Shown: positions 1,581 to 7,290 of the stretch, piece after piece
Numbering within the stretch: the first letter of the stretch is position 1
Layout: every line of letters begins with the position of its first letter
Origin: an uncultured Phycisphaerales bacterium
GTDB taxonomy: Bacteria > Planctomycetota > Phycisphaerae > UBA1845 > Fen-1342
Reading direction: 5' to 3'
Length of the DNA stretch: 34,100 nucleotides
Assembly (NCBI GenBank): GCA_903914415.1
Contig: CAIWOY010000150.1
Location: 1-34,100, forward strand
Position numbers and translations under genes: made by a program
Notes under the pieces: model-generated
Told to the model about the DNA's origin: nothing
The model's input: only the letters and a program-made list of their open reading frames with translations
Database searches by the model: none

Positions 1581-2483
1581 CTACAGCTCGGGAGCCGGGA
1601 AGGCGCGGGCCATCGTCTCCAGGTGGGCCCAGTTCTCGCGAATCTGCGCCTGCAGCGCGTCCAGGTCCAGCGTCGCGGAGCGGTAGCGGCGTTGCCGCTT
1701 GATGTAGTCCTCGAGCGGCGTGCCATCGGGGCGCGCGTTGATCCGATAACGTCGGCCGCCGTACACCTCGTACAGCGGGAACAGCCCGCAGCGCACCGCC
1801 GTGTCGATCAGGTCCACGCTATCGCCCGGCTCCGACTTCCACCCGGTGGGGCACGGCGAGAGCATGAGCAAAAACCGGAAGCCCTTCATCTGCCGCGCGG
1901 TCTTCACCTTCCGCATGAAGTCGTCGCGGTGGGCCACCGACAGCGTCGCCGCGTACGGCACGCGGTGCGCCGCGACGAGCGCCATGATGTCCTTCTTCGG
2001 CTCCAGCTTGCCTTCGCTGGTGGTGCTGGTCTTGACGCCCTGCGGCGTGGCGCTGCTGCGCTGCCCGCCGGTGTTGCCGTAGATCTCGTTGTCGTAGCAG
2101 ATGTAGAGGAGGTCTTCGTTGCGTTCGGCGGCCGCGGACCAGGTGGCGACGCCGATGTCGTAGGTCCCGCCGTCGCCGGTCCAGCAGACGGTCAACTCGT
2201 CCTCGCCGTTCATCGCGTAGACGGAGGAGACGCCGGTCGCGACCGACGCGGCGCTGGCGAACGTGCACGCCACGGTCGGCACGCCGTAGGCACTGGTTGG
2301 GAACGTGCCGGCGGTGACGATGCCGCAACAGGCGGGGATGCATAGGGTCGGGCGCTCGCCTTCGAGCGCCTGCTCGAGCCACTGAAGCCCGATCGACATG
2401 CCGCAGCCGGCGCAGTTCGTGTTGCCGGGCCGCAGAATCCCGTCGCAGCGCGCCTCATGGGGTGTGACCGGCGCGGTAGTCAT
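1581..2483 (-). CDS. porB: Pyruvate:ferredoxin oxidoreductase, beta (TPP-binding) subunit
   Basis: 300 aa, the usual PorB length. It binds thiamine diphosphate and, with PorA, cleaves pyruvate with CoA to acetyl-CoA, CO2 and reduced ferredoxin in the cytoplasm. NTNCAGCGMSIG near the N-terminus carries cluster-ligand cysteines. GDGGTYDIG followed by NEIYGNTGGQRS is the TPP/Mg site. SPCPTGWKSEP toward the C-terminus holds the last conserved Cys and is typical of pyruvate-type enzymes. The ATG at 2483 overlaps the porA stop by 4 nt (ATGA), so the two are translationally coupled. It is the last gene of the operon. A related substrate such as 2-oxoisovalerate is possible, but the beta-subunit motifs favour pyruvate. 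Confidence 0.93.
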   Translation of the reverse strand: MTTAPVTPHEARCDGILRPGNTNCAGCGMSIGLQWLEQALEGERPTLCIPACCGIVTAGTFPTSAYGVPTVACTFASAASVATGVSSVYAMNGEDELTVCWTGDGGTYDIGVATWSAAAERNEDLLYICYDNEIYGNTGGQRSSATPQGVKTSTTSEGKLEPKKDIMALVAAHRVPYAATLSVAHRDDFMRKVKTARQMKGFRFLLMLSPCPTGWKSEPGDSVDLIDTAVRCGLFPLYEVYGGRRYRINARPDGTPLEDYIKRQRRYRSATLDLDALQAQIRENWAHLETMARAFPAPEL

Positions 2484-3649
2484 GAGAGCACCTCTTTCCA
2501 GACGGGCTCGCTCGCAACGGTGCGCGCGTTGAGGTCGTCGAGAATCTCGTCGAGGATGGCCGGGGTGACATCGCCGCCGCCGAGCCCCACCAGGTAGTCC
2601 TGGAGCAGGAGGCCGGGCTTCTCGCGCAGGCTGGTGGCAATCTCGGTCCAGAAGATGCCGCCGGAGCCGGGCGAATGGTTGCGGTCGAGGACGCCGACGC
2701 GTTTGGCTGACCCGATCGCGCGCACATAGTCCTGGCGCGGGAAGGGGCGGAACAGCTTGGCTTTGATGAGGCCGATCTTCTGCCCGCGCTCGCGCCGCCG
2801 CTTCACGACGGTACGGAGCGTCCGCACCATCGTGTTGCAGGCAATCAGCACGGTTTCGGCGTCCTCGGTGTGCTCGGCCGACAGCGTGCCGTGCGGCCGG
2901 CGGCCGAAGACCCGCTCGAATTCGTCGATCGCCTCGGCGAGCACCTGCGGCACGCGGTCCATCGCGGCCTGAATCTCCATGCGATGTCGCTCGGTGTCGT
3001 GCGGAACGATCATGCCGCCCACGGTCACGCCCTTGCCGCGCAAGCGGTGCGGCAGATCGAGCGGCGGCAGGTAGCGGTCCACCTGCTCCTGCTCGGGCAA
3101 GTCGACGACCGTCTGCGTGTGCGACACGACGAAGCCGTCCTCCGCGACAAGCGAGGGCAGTAGCACGCGCGGGTCCTCGCTCACGCGGAACGCCAGCAGG
3201 ATCGTATCCACCAGGTCCTGGTGCGATTCGGTGTAGAACTGGAGCCACGCCGCGTCCCGCAGGGCCAGCGTGTCGCCCTGGTCGGTCCAGATATTCCACG
3301 GCGGGCCGAGGGTGCGGTTGACGCCGATCATGACAATCGGCAGGCGGTAGTAGCCGGCGGCGAAGACGTTCTCGGTCATGTAGGCGAGGCCGTTGGACGA
3401 GCTGGCGGTGAAAGAGCGGGCGCCCGCAAGCGCGCCGCCGATGCACACGCCCATTGCGCTGTGCTCGGACTCGACCGCCACGACGCGGCCCTTGGTGAAC
3501 TTGAAGTCGCGCAGGAACTCGACGATTTCGGTTTGCGGCGTAATGGGGTACGCGCCGCAGATGGCCCCGCGCGCCTTGCGGTTGGCTTCGCCCGCCAGCG
3601 CGAGCGTGTACCCGGCCGCGTTGTTCCCGGTAACGAGTTCGCGTGCCAC
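2480..3649 (-). CDS. porA: Pyruvate:ferredoxin oxidoreductase, alpha subunit
   Basis: 389 aa from GTG at 3649, a start chosen because TTGGAG lies just upstream and because homologous alpha subunits begin with a similar ELxxGN segment. A longer reading from 3733 would translate a palindromic repeat and is rejected. Domain I carries the conserved YPITPQT motif (about 34-40), which contacts TPP and pyruvate. ESEHSAMG (60-67) and SSSNGLAYMTEN follow. The C-terminal domain II contains LIKAKLFRPFP and DRNHSPGSGG. It forms the catalytic core with PorB, whose start codon overlaps its stop. Upstream, a 109-bp gap with two hairpins separates it from the fused gamma/delta gene, so the alpha and beta subunits may be expressed at a different level from the first cistron. 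Confidence 0.93.
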   Translation of the reverse strand: MARELVTGNNAAGYTLALAGEANRKARGAICGAYPITPQTEIVEFLRDFKFTKGRVVAVESEHSAMGVCIGGALAGARSFTASSSNGLAYMTENVFAAGYYRLPIVMIGVNRTLGPPWNIWTDQGDTLALRDAAWLQFYTESHQDLVDTILLAFRVSEDPRVLLPSLVAEDGFVVSHTQTVVDLPEQEQVDRYLPPLDLPHRLRGKGVTVGGMIVPHDTERHRMEIQAAMDRVPQVLAEAIDEFERVFGRRPHGTLSAEHTEDAETVLIACNTMVRTLRTVVKRRRERGQKIGLIKAKLFRPFPRQDYVRAIGSAKRVGVLDRNHSPGSGGIFWTEIATSLREKPGLLLQDYLVGLGGGDVTPAILDEILDDLNARTVASEPVWKEVLS

Positions 3650-3666
3650 GTGGATCTCCAACCGGC

Positions 3667-3747
3667 GAGCCGCGGGCTTCAGCCCGCGCAGTCGTAACGG
3701 CGGGCCGCTCCACACGGTCGCACCGCGCGGCATGAATGCCGCGGCTC
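3667..3747. repeat. REP-like double-hairpin element inside the por operon
   Basis: Two near-perfect palindromes of the same design stand 37 bp apart: CGCGGGCT-TC-AGCCCGCG (3671-3688) and CGCGGCAT-GA-ATGCCGCG (3726-3743). The whole is framed by GAGCCGCGG (3667-3675) and its complement CCGCGGCTC (3739-3747). It sits between the stop of the gamma/delta fusion gene and the ribosome-binding site of porA. The compound-palindrome form resembles bacterial REP/BIME elements, and the CGCGGGCT/AGCCCGCG core is of a kind often dispersed in planctomycete genomes (recalled, not searched). It may also attenuate or stabilise the operon mRNA. Confidence 0.7.
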
Positions 3748-3758
3748 ACGATCAGCCT

Positions 3759-5978
3759 CTATAACTCCGCCATATACACGACGCCGCGGGGGCACTGCGA
3801 CGCGCAGATCCCGCAGCCCTTGCAGTACTCGTAGTCGAATTCGTAATTGCCGGACCCGCGATGCACCATGATGCCTTCCGGGCAGTAGGACAGGCAGCGG
3901 TCGCATTCGTTGCACACGCCGCAGCTCAGGCAGCGGCCGGCCTCGATCGTCGCCGCCGGTCGCCCCGGCTCGTCGAGCAGGCCCAGCCGGACCTCGGTGA
4001 AGCTGCCGCGCCGCACGTCGGGCGGCAGGACGACGCCGCGCTCGCGGGGTGCATGGGCGAACACGTGCATCGTGATGCGGTCGGGGCCGGCGACCTCGGG
4101 CGGCGGCGGGGGGAACAAGTCCTCGCCCGTCAGGGTGCGGTGGATGTGCAGCGCCGCGCGACGCCCGCCGCCGATCGCCGCCGTCACCGTCCCGTCGTTC
4201 GTCGCGAAATCGCCCCCGGCGAAGATCGGCGCACCGGTCAGCCCGGCCAGCTTCTGACTGTCGCGCACCTCGGAGCCTTCGGGAAAGATCGACAAGTCCG
4301 GCGTTTGTCCGAGCGCGAGGATGACCTTGTCGCACCGGACCTCGAATTGCGAATCTTCGCTCTCGATGGGGACCGGCGCCCGCCGTCCAGAGGCATCGGG
4401 CTCGCCCAGTCTCATGCGTTGGCAGGTCAGCACCGGCCCCAGCGCGTCCTCGTGCAGCCGCAGCGGAGCGACCAGCTCCGACAGCTCGATGCCCTCTTCC
4501 AGCGCCTCGTCGATCTCCTCCTTGATCGCGGGCATTTCCGCGCGCGTCCTGCGATAGAGGATGTGCACGCTGCGTGCGCCGAGCCGGCGGGCCGAGCGGG
4601 CGGCATCCATGGCGGTGTTTCCGCCGCCGATAACCGCGACGCGTTGCGCGATCAGGTTCTCCTGCCCGTGCCGGGCGCGGTCGAGGAAGTCGATGCCTTG
4701 CACGGCGATCCCCGGCGCGTCATGTCCCAGACGCAGCGCCCGCGACTCCTGCAACCCCGTCGCGACGAAGATCGCCGCGAACTGGTGCGACATCTCCAGC
4801 AGCCGCTTGCGGTCGATGGTCTGGCCCGTCTTGACCTCGACGCCGTGGCGAACGATGAAGCTGATCTCGCGGTCGAGCACGTCCCGGGGGAGGCGGTAGC
4901 TCGGAATCCCCGTCCGCAGCACGCCGCCGAGCTCCGCGCCCAGCTCGAACAGCGTCACCCGATAGCCGAGCCGCGCCAGGTGATACGTCGCGCTCAGACC
5001 CGCCGGCCCCGAGCCGATCACGGCGAGCGGCTCGGCGCGCTGCGGCTTCGTCACGTCCGGCCAGCGGGCATGATCGGCCAGGTAGCGCTCGATATCGCGA
5101 ACGTTGACCGCTTCGTCATGCTCCCGGCGGTTGCACGCCTCCATGCACGGCGCCGGACACACGCGCCCGCAGATGCCGGGCAGCGGCGACGTTTGCAGGA
5201 TGATGCGCAGGGCTTCGTCGAATTCCTTCTTCCCGGTCGCCTGCACGAAACCCCGCACGTCGTTCCCCGCGGGGCAGCCGTCGTTGCAGGGCGGCGTGAG
5301 CTGGTGGCGCTTTGGCTGGCGGCTCGCCCAATCGCCGGTGTGAATCGTCGGCAGCCCGCCCAGGTCGCGGTCCAGGATGCTCGCGACCCGTCCGGACACG
5401 CGGACGCACGCCGCGGGCTCAACCTTCCCGGCGAGCTGCTTCGCGCGGACGCCTTCGAACGCCTGCTGCCCGGAGCGCAGGTTCGGTCCGCCGAATCCGA
5501 CGTGGTCCATGGCCGCCTCGACATCCCGGAGTGCCAGCCCCAACACCTTGGCAACGGCACCGAGCATCGTCGTATTGACGATCGGCACCGCTCGCGTCCC
5601 CAACCCATTGGCGACGGCGATCCCGGTCGCGTCCACCGTGACTACCCGCCGCCCGGGGAACTGCTCGGCGTAGGTCTCCGGCGGCTCCGGAGAATTGACA
5701 ATCAGCCAACCCGCCGGCTTGAGCCCGCTGACGATCTGCGGCCCGATCAGCGTGCGGTCGAGGACGATGACGTGATCCGGCTCGCGAATCTGGTTGTGAT
5801 TCGTGATTTCCTCGTCATCAATCCGCACAAAGGCCTGTACCGGGGCGCCGGAACGCTCGGCCGCGTACACCCCGAACGCTTGCACGTAGCGGCCACGCAG
5901 GAAATAGGCCGACGCGATGAGCTTCGCGAGCGTGACCCCGCCCTGCCCGCCCCGTCCGTGGATCGCGATCTCGGTCAT
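3759..5978 (-). CDS. Fused PorC (gamma) - GltD-like FAD/NAD(P)H oxidoreductase - PorD (ferredoxin) protein
   Basis: 739 aa from ATG 5978, which follows GGGTGAG. Three modules are visible. Residues 1-185 are a PorC-type gamma subunit (HGRGGQGGVTLAK; AAERSGAPVQAFVRI). Residues about 225-620 are a GltD/NfnB-like flavoprotein, with N-terminal cluster cysteines in CNDGCPAG (231-238) and CGRVCPAPCMEAC (270-282), a FAD fold VIGSGPAGLSA (320-330), an NAD(P)H fold VIGGGNTAMDA (449-459) and the FAD-closing GGDFATNDGTVTAAIGGG (588-605). Residues about 680-739 are a PorD-like ferredoxin with CLSCGVCNECDRCLSYCP and CKGCGICASQCP, enough cysteines for two [4Fe-4S] clusters. It is the first gene of the por operon. 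Gamma and delta are normal POR parts. The inserted oxidoreductase suggests electron transfer between ferredoxin clusters and NAD(P), which is inference. No frameshift interrupts the fusion. Confidence 0.9.
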   Translation of the reverse strand: MTEIAIHGRGGQGGVTLAKLIASAYFLRGRYVQAFGVYAAERSGAPVQAFVRIDDEEITNHNQIREPDHVIVLDRTLIGPQIVSGLKPAGWLIVNSPEPPETYAEQFPGRRVVTVDATGIAVANGLGTRAVPIVNTTMLGAVAKVLGLALRDVEAAMDHVGFGGPNLRSGQQAFEGVRAKQLAGKVEPAACVRVSGRVASILDRDLGGLPTIHTGDWASRQPKRHQLTPPCNDGCPAGNDVRGFVQATGKKEFDEALRIILQTSPLPGICGRVCPAPCMEACNRREHDEAVNVRDIERYLADHARWPDVTKPQRAEPLAVIGSGPAGLSATYHLARLGYRVTLFELGAELGGVLRTGIPSYRLPRDVLDREISFIVRHGVEVKTGQTIDRKRLLEMSHQFAAIFVATGLQESRALRLGHDAPGIAVQGIDFLDRARHGQENLIAQRVAVIGGGNTAMDAARSARRLGARSVHILYRRTRAEMPAIKEEIDEALEEGIELSELVAPLRLHEDALGPVLTCQRMRLGEPDASGRRAPVPIESEDSQFEVRCDKVILALGQTPDLSIFPEGSEVRDSQKLAGLTGAPIFAGGDFATNDGTVTAAIGGGRRAALHIHRTLTGEDLFPPPPPEVAGPDRITMHVFAHAPRERGVVLPPDVRRGSFTEVRLGLLDEPGRPAATIEAGRCLSCGVCNECDRCLSYCPEGIMVHRGSGNYEFDYEYCKGCGICASQCPRGVVYMAEL

Positions 5979-6222: not shown

Positions 6223-7290
6223 CTACAGCGTCGTCTTCATCCCGTGCTTCTGCCAGTCGGCAATCAGCCCCCGGAACTCGTCGATAGCCAGCCGCAGCCG
6301 CCCGGTGGTCTCAAGCAGGCTTTCGTACAGCCGGTTGTCCATGAACAGTTGTCCGACGTTGCCCTTGCCGCTGGTGACCTGCTCGCTCAGCACGTTCAAG
6401 TTGTCGAGAACGCGGTCGGCGCGGTCGAGCGCGTCGACGAGCGCCCGGGCGACGTCCGTGACCCGCGTGTCCAGATTTTCCATCTTCTTGTTCGCGTTCG
6501 CGATCATCTCGCGCCCGTCGGCGAGCAACTGGCGAGCGTCCTTTACCGCCGCCTCGAAGTCCGTCATGAGCCGCTGCCCCTTCTCAGACATGTCGCGGAC
6601 GTTGGCGACAGTCTCGCGCAGCTCGCTCTTCACATTCGGGTCACCCAGCACGTCGTTGAAGTGCTTCAGCGACGCGTCGAACCGGGCCGCCGCACTCGAA
6701 ATGTTGCCCGGCGCTGCGCCCCGGTCGACCTGCTCCGGGCTGCGCTTCTGAAACAGGTCCTGTAACTCGTTGAGCACGGGGGGCATGGCTTCGGCCGCAT
6801 CGCCGATCTGCCGCGCGACCGTCTCGAATGTCCCGACGACTCCCGGCGGGAGGATGGAGTCGAGCGCGGGGCGCGTCTTACCTGTCAGCGTGGCGCCCGC
6901 GGCCAACAGGGGCGCGTTGGCCGGCCCCGGGTCGATCTCGATCGGCGGCCGTCCCTGTCCGAACATGCCCGCGCCCGTCTGCGCCGAGGCCCCCTCGTGA
7001 ATTGAGCTGCTATAGCGCTTCTGGATCGAGACGAGCACGTCGACCCCCTTGTCCAGCCGCGCCAGATCGACGAGATCGACGCTGGAAACCTCGCCAATCC
7101 TCATTCCGCGGACCGTCACGAGATTCCCCACGCGGATGCTGCCGGCATCGTCGAAGTTGATGTGCAGCAGGTAGCGCCCGCCGCTAAGCCAGCTGGGCCC
7201 CTGTCCGAAGAGAACGACCAGCGCTGCGAGAGCCACCAGTCCGCACGCGACGAAGACCCCCACCCACACGTTCCGACGCATCTCGTCCAT
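6223..7290 (-). CDS. MCE/MlaD-family lipid-transport protein
   Basis: 355 aa from ATG 7290, with GGAG eight bases upstream. One N-terminal membrane anchor (about 8-28, WVGVFVACGLVALAALVVLF) is followed by a single MCE domain (about 38-118), recognised from the pattern of a beta strand with INFDDAGSIRVGNLVTVRGMRIGEV. A long polar, helix-forming C-terminal region (about 150-350) with repeated DxxxxLxxxxE segments completes it. MCE proteins form periplasmic rings or tubes that move phospholipids between membranes, usually with an MlaE permease and MlaF ATPase. Neither is next to this gene: the neighbours are the por operon downstream and a divergent response regulator, so the partners must be elsewhere. 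The helical tail could form a tube as in other single-MCE, long-tail proteins, which is inference. Confidence 0.85.
   Translation of the reverse strand: MDEMRRNVWVGVFVACGLVALAALVVLFGQGPSWLSGGRYLLHINFDDAGSIRVGNLVTVRGMRIGEVSSVDLVDLARLDKGVDVLVSIQKRYSSSIHEGASAQTGAGMFGQGRPPIEIDPGPANAPLLAAGATLTGKTRPALDSILPPGVVGTFETVARQIGDAAEAMPPVLNELQDLFQKRSPEQVDRGAAPGNISSAAARFDASLKHFNDVLGDPNVKSELRETVANVRDMSEKGQRLMTDFEAAVKDARQLLADGREMIANANKKMENLDTRVTDVARALVDALDRADRVLDNLNVLSEQVTSGKGNVGQLFMDNRLYESLLETTGRLRLAIDEFRGLIADWQKHGMKTTL

Follow-up and report, generated by a model that had tools for sequence, protein, structure and literature searches.

The window, a 34,100-nucleotide stretch of DNA from an uncultured Phycisphaerales bacterium, carries on its minus strand (5978 to 3759) a frame of 739 amino acids that is free of stops until its terminal stop codon; read on the plus strand, the same interval meets a stop already at codon 2. 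An earlier note on this DNA had given the coordinates and the single frame correctly and had left the strand unstated. Pfam searches of the translation returned POR (residues 10–159), Fer4_20 (228–305), Pyr_redox_2 (318–600) and Fer4_7 (689–733), in agreement with the note's claim that a PorC domain, an FAD/NAD(P)H flavoprotein and a two-cluster ferredoxin share one chain (Table 1).

Table 1. Features of the fusion gene and its neighbours, in window positions.
Feature	Position	Strand	Basis or motifs
PorC–GltD–PorD fusion gene	3759..5978	-	739 aa plus stop; translation, domain search
PorC (gamma) domain, residues 1–178	5445..5978	-	Pfam POR; TIGR02175
Fer4_20 / GltD N-terminal iron–sulfur domain, residues 226–310	5049..5303	-	Pfam Fer4_20; C231, C235, C274, C278, C282, E297
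FAD and NADP Rossmann domains, residues 315–620	4119..5036	-	Pfam Pyr_redox_2; motifs; AF2 alignment
C683–C686 in RCLSC motif, proposed ligands completing the second GltD cluster	3921..3932	-	Invariant, 44/44
PorD (delta) type 2[4Fe–4S] ferredoxin domain, residues 687–739	3762..3920	-	Fer4_7 / Fer4, TIGR02179, phmmer
porA (alpha), at most 417 aa, actual start possibly further in	2480..3733	-	POR_N, PFOR_II
porB (beta), 300 aa	1581..2483	-	TPP motif GDG...N; [4Fe–4S] ligands C24, C27, C53, C211
Gene with an MlaD domain, immediately upstream	6223..7290	-	Domain search

At the N terminus, the PorC model TIGR02175 scores 155.6 bits, above its cut-off of 81.1, and the region aligns with the PorC chains 9bt4_F (Z score of 23.4) and 2raa (Z score of 22.9). 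The PorD model TIGR02179 reaches 50.1 bits at the C terminus, under its cut-off of 60.05; all eight PorD cysteines are invariant, and the region matches 9bt4_G (phmmer, 1e-9). Between the two, the Rossmann motifs GSGPAG and GGGNTA begin at residues 322 and 451, followed by YRR at 475–477. An AF2 model of the chain (pLDDT of 84.7) superposes on 9bov_A with a Z score of 44.1 (2.3 Å over residues 224..689) and on 8oh5_C with a Z score of 42.5. The fusion scores 506.7 bits against NF009410, narrowly under the curated value of 516, and an unfused relative from a Chloroflexi MAG (L041) scores 555. These matches indicate that the chain is likely to comprise the gamma and delta subunits of a 2-oxoacid oxidoreductase of the POR/VOR type, separated by an inserted GltD-like NADP+ reductase. 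The parts are known and the PorC–GltD–PorD arrangement is new; we found no description of it in the searchable literature.

The fusion gene lies directly upstream of porA and porB, as the earlier note had it. All three genes are on the same strand, and the reading of an operon is supported; the porA stop and porB start overlap as ATGA. PorA matches 9bt4_B (4e-68) and scores 342 bits against PorA_Arch, under the cut-off of 550, and neither PorA nor PorB reaches the curated cut-off in the pyruvate or ketoisovalerate models. The four cluster ligands of PorB are invariant (n = 30). At a separate locus (L124), an MlaD-like frame also occurs near an unlinked porB.

Conservation and distribution of the fusion

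A frameshift or assembly join within the frame, which the earlier note had named as fatal to its reading, was looked for and is ruled out by codon-position GC, full-length orthologues and dN/dS. Codon-position GC is uniform along the 739 residues, and two orthologues are 92% and 81% identical across residues 1–739. Every domain and linker shows more synonymous than nonsynonymous change. The dN/dS values are well below 1 with one exception: in the second of the pairs compared, linker 1 reaches about 0.5.

Relatives are encoded at 66 loci in a search of 85k species genomes, many of them full length and at 41–92% identity. The nearest named relatives come from MAGs labelled Phycisphaerales, and all named full-length carriers in that search are MAG or uncultured records. 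Full-length copies span at least six phyla; by record labels, members of the fused GltD clade described below come from Planctomycetota, Pseudomonadota, Gemmatimonadota, Acidobacteriota, Myxococcota and Thermodesulfobacteriota. A full-length match was present in about 24 of 61 relatives, or about 26 when two split over contigs are included; wider samples yielded the fusion in 20 of 392 genomes from the phylum, 13 of 200 from the order of a Lysobacterales locus and 1 of 76 from the family of a Geobacter MAG. The carriers are many uncultured bacteria, mostly planctomycetes. A search for plasmid carriage gave no match at E 1e-80.

PorA and then PorB follow immediately 3′ of the fusion at 31 of the 32 loci with enough flank. 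At the exception (L013), porA–porB is unlinked, on contig C78 of the same genome, and sulfhydrogenase-type [NiFe] hydrogenase genes adjoin the fusion in its place (L013:6001-12167). In a tree of 95 GltD domains, all 44 fused ones form a single clade (support 100/99), and the spread of this one clade across phyla suggests a single fusion with transfer afterwards.

Cluster ligands of the fusion chain

Fifteen cysteines (231, 235, 274, 278, 282, 683, 686, 689, 692, 695, 699, 719, 722, 725 and 729) are invariant in 44 aligned fusions, and residue 297 is Glu in 43 of the 44. Together these residues would provide 16 ligands, a number predicted to serve exactly four [4Fe–4S] clusters in the fusion chain. 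By the ligand scheme of NfnB (PMC7596348), the flavin-proximal cluster would be held by C235, C274, C278 and E297. The second GltD cluster needs four ligands, of which the N-terminal domain supplies only C231 and C282; the usual GltD N-terminal CxxC is absent. The earlier note's description of a complete flavoprotein with its own N-terminal iron–sulfur cysteines is accordingly right for some ligands and wrong for the two that are missing.

A candidate replacement lies at the other end of the flavoprotein. An ExxRCxxC motif after the FAD domain is found in every complete protein without the N-terminal CxxC (n = 78), 12 proteins have only the N-terminal CxxC and no tail motif, none has both, and 8 proteins, truncated or of variant spacing, have neither; these counts are not independent, because the ligand swap falls on about one branch of the tree and the perfect association amounts to one evolutionary event. 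The GltD region of StnC (102–565) holds two clusters and ends at an RCxxC whose C562 and C565 are the equivalents of C683 and C686, and the AF2 model could be aligned to 9bov_A and 8oh5_C through residue 689. Given the motif swap, the StnC equivalents and this alignment, C683 and C686 most likely replace the missing CxxC and complete the second GltD cluster with C231 and C282. As C686 and C689 are only three residues apart, such a composite cluster would have to adjoin the first PorD cluster. This proximity, predicted from sequence alone, goes some way towards answering the objection, raised in the earlier note, that clusters and flavin might lie too far apart for electron transfer.

Relationship to known systems

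The four-subunit pyruvate or 2-ketoisovalerate:ferredoxin oxidoreductase PorGDAB (for example, 9bt4) shares with the present system its PorC, PorD-type, PorA and PorB components, the TPP motif and the PorB cluster, whereas the fusion holds gamma and delta in one chain around a flavoprotein and has NADP+ as its likely acceptor. DsrL and the NF009410 / PRK12771 family share the order of Fer4_20, FAD/NAD(P) domain, linker and terminal 2[4Fe–4S] domain, and DsrL-2 the YRR motif, but they lack a PorC fusion and the partner of DsrL is a sulfite reductase. The DsrL survey encountered DsrL-like genes linked to pyruvate/ketoisovalerate oxidoreductases and left them out (PMC7596348); the fusion, being linked to porAB, falls outside DsrL as defined there by the absence of linkage to 2-oxoacid oxidoreductase genes. 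NfnB, the GltD-like chain of NfnABC (9bov_A, 9n5u_A) and StnC (8oh5_C) have the same GltD fold, and the StnC and NfnABC chains align over about residues 224..689 of the fusion, RCxxC included. Unlike the fusion, these are transhydrogenases with other partner subunits.

The statement in the earlier note that no biochemical study was known needs amending, as two oxidoreductases of Azoarcus evansii are precedents for the principle. Its 2-oxoglutarate:NADP+ oxidoreductase (Ebenau-Jehle 2003, as cited in PMC10134865) has one subunit placed among GltD-like proteins, in the NsoC clade, in the tree of PMC10134865. As far as that source describes it, the enzyme resembles our proposal in being a 2-oxoacid oxidoreductase with NADP+ as acceptor and a GltD-like subunit; it differs from the fusion in being named for 2-oxoglutarate and in the NsoC placement of its GltD-like subunit. 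The second precedent, phenylglyoxylate:NAD+ oxidoreductase (PadEFGHI), as cited in PMC5109826, is likewise a 2-oxoacid oxidoreductase with a pyridine-nucleotide acceptor, but consists of separate subunits. We considered and rejected a PadH-type flavoprotein for the present gene: NF045765 has no match on its contig (C150), and the PadE, PadG and PadI models score far under cut-off. The protist pyruvate:NADP+ oxidoreductase consists of a PFOR and a domain resembling cytochrome P450 reductase, joined in a single chain. It, too, is a fused enzyme that couples pyruvate oxidation to NADP+, with a different flavoprotein.

Related modules occur in other arrangements. A Chloroflexi MAG (L041:3554-7596) encodes KorA-, KorB- and gamma-like genes of a 2-oxoacid oxidoreductase followed by an unfused GltD–Fd gene, a split version of the architecture. 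In a Myxococcota MAG (L067:4207-7740), a 1178-aa frame joins an IorA-type TPP core to GltD–Fd (POR_N, TPP_enzyme_C, Fer4_20, Pyr_redox_2, Fer4), and L066 is an apparent sibling whose GltD portion contains a change of frame. Together with the A. evansii subunit as placed in PMC10134865, these two loci make the joining of GltD–Fd modules to 2-oxoacid oxidoreductases appear recurrent. That the POR fusion, L041 and L067 each recruited the module independently is likely on architecture rather than on the tree, which does not reject a single recruitment (AU p of 0.16 to 0.18).

Proposed electron route and its alternatives

Residues Y475, R476 and R477 are invariant in all 44 fusions. In NfnB the phosphate of NADP is bound by this motif, which is also present in the DsrL-2 enzyme that was tested and proved specific for NADP(H) (PMC7596348); by analogy, YRR would favour NADP(H) over NAD(H) here. 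Direct pyridine-nucleotide reduction, as the earlier note had suggested, is supported as the likely, predicted role, with YRR pointing to NADP(H).

On the domains, operon, ligand inventory and conservation described above, we infer that the fusion, PorA and PorB assemble into one complex, and we consider it probable that this complex acts as a POR/VOR-type 2-oxoacid:NADP+ oxidoreductase, working in the oxidative direction. PorA and PorB would decarboxylate a 2-oxoacid on TPP, most likely pyruvate, or a branched-chain oxoacid. Electrons would then travel singly from TPP to the PorB cluster, the two PorD clusters and the composite GltD cluster (C231 and C282 with C683 and C686), and on through the flavin-proximal cluster to FAD, from which a hydride would pass to NADP+, probably without free ferredoxin.

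Retention of all eight PorD ligands, and the presence of other ferredoxin-type enzymes in the genome (a NifJ-type PFOR and NfnA–NfnB), would also suit a ferredoxin-linked POR with free ferredoxin as its main product, in which the GltD part merely equilibrates with NADP(H) as a built-in ferredoxin:NADP+ reductase. However, the RCLSC motif would bind the PorD domain tightly to GltD and may hide the ferredoxin docking face, and the whole arrangement is inherited as a single unit, which makes a side exit of this kind unlikely. The potentials concerned are about −500 mV for pyruvate and about −320 mV for NADPH. Transfer from 2-oxoacid to NADP+ is downhill by these textbook values, so no coupling is needed. 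The reverse, NADPH-driven carboxylation of acetyl-CoA to pyruvate, would have to climb roughly 180 mV in the standard state, and the locus offers no evident energy input; although PORs are reversible, as is well established, and the GltD-like DsrL-2 enzymes draw electrons from NADPH (PMC7596348), we regard this direction as highly improbable.

The earlier note had also raised bifurcation in the manner of NfnAB. Flavin-based bifurcation or confurcation, in which FAD sends some electrons to NADP+ and others to a further acceptor, would be in keeping with the NfnB-like Glu ligand E297 and with the conserved R362 near the FAD, the equivalent of StnC R239 and NfnB R201. But R362 cannot tell bifurcating from non-bifurcating flavins, because StnC, the closest structure with a flavin characterized in the literature searched, has the same Arg and yet a non-bifurcating FAD. 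The locus itself encodes no NfnA-type subunit, its neighbours being the MlaD-domain gene upstream and porA and porB downstream, and the NfnA–NfnB pair of the genome is encoded separately, on contig C408. Bifurcation by the fusion enzyme is therefore not supported and seems highly improbable.

The genome, at 4.74 Mb and 97% complete, provides further context for the proposed 2-oxoacid:NADP+ oxidoreductase. Besides the Nfn pair, contig C131 encodes the NifJ-type PFOR, C86 a 2-oxoacid oxidoreductase and C404 an IorA-type protein, and C111 has a PDH E1 match; searches of the genome for heme-copper oxidase subunit 1 and for RnfC returned no match. With these other 2-oxoacid oxidoreductases, PDH E1 and Nfn at hand, the cell would have no obvious need of the fusion as a source of NADPH, and its enzyme would be a specialised extra for which a bifurcating role need not be invoked. 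On C404, an IorA-type gene adjoins a separate fusion, of POR-gamma to Succ_CoA_lig, CoA_binding_2 and ATP-grasp_5, of the ADP-forming acyl-CoA synthetase type (L116:3621-6764).

The fusion is real, conserved and coherent, and the principle has biochemical precedent. More tentatively, the system may be a bacterial counterpart of the protist pyruvate:NADP+ oxidoreductase, in which a cluster whose ligands come from either side of the flavin domain couples PorD permanently to a flavin that reduces NADP+. On this reading, the module would have been joined separately to POR, KOR and IOR, serving generally to change the acceptor from ferredoxin to NADP+. Enzymes of this class normally pass electrons from 2-oxoacids to ferredoxin. 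A built-in NADP+ exit, if true, would alter the balance between ferredoxin and NADPH in these uncultured bacteria. Metabolic models of Planctomycetota genomes would be affected; there, the best names that libraries offer for this chain are PorC and a NAD(P)-binding protein of glutamate-synthase-like type. The fusion is also compact enough to serve as a test case for how a 2-oxoacid oxidoreductase can be rewired towards a new acceptor.
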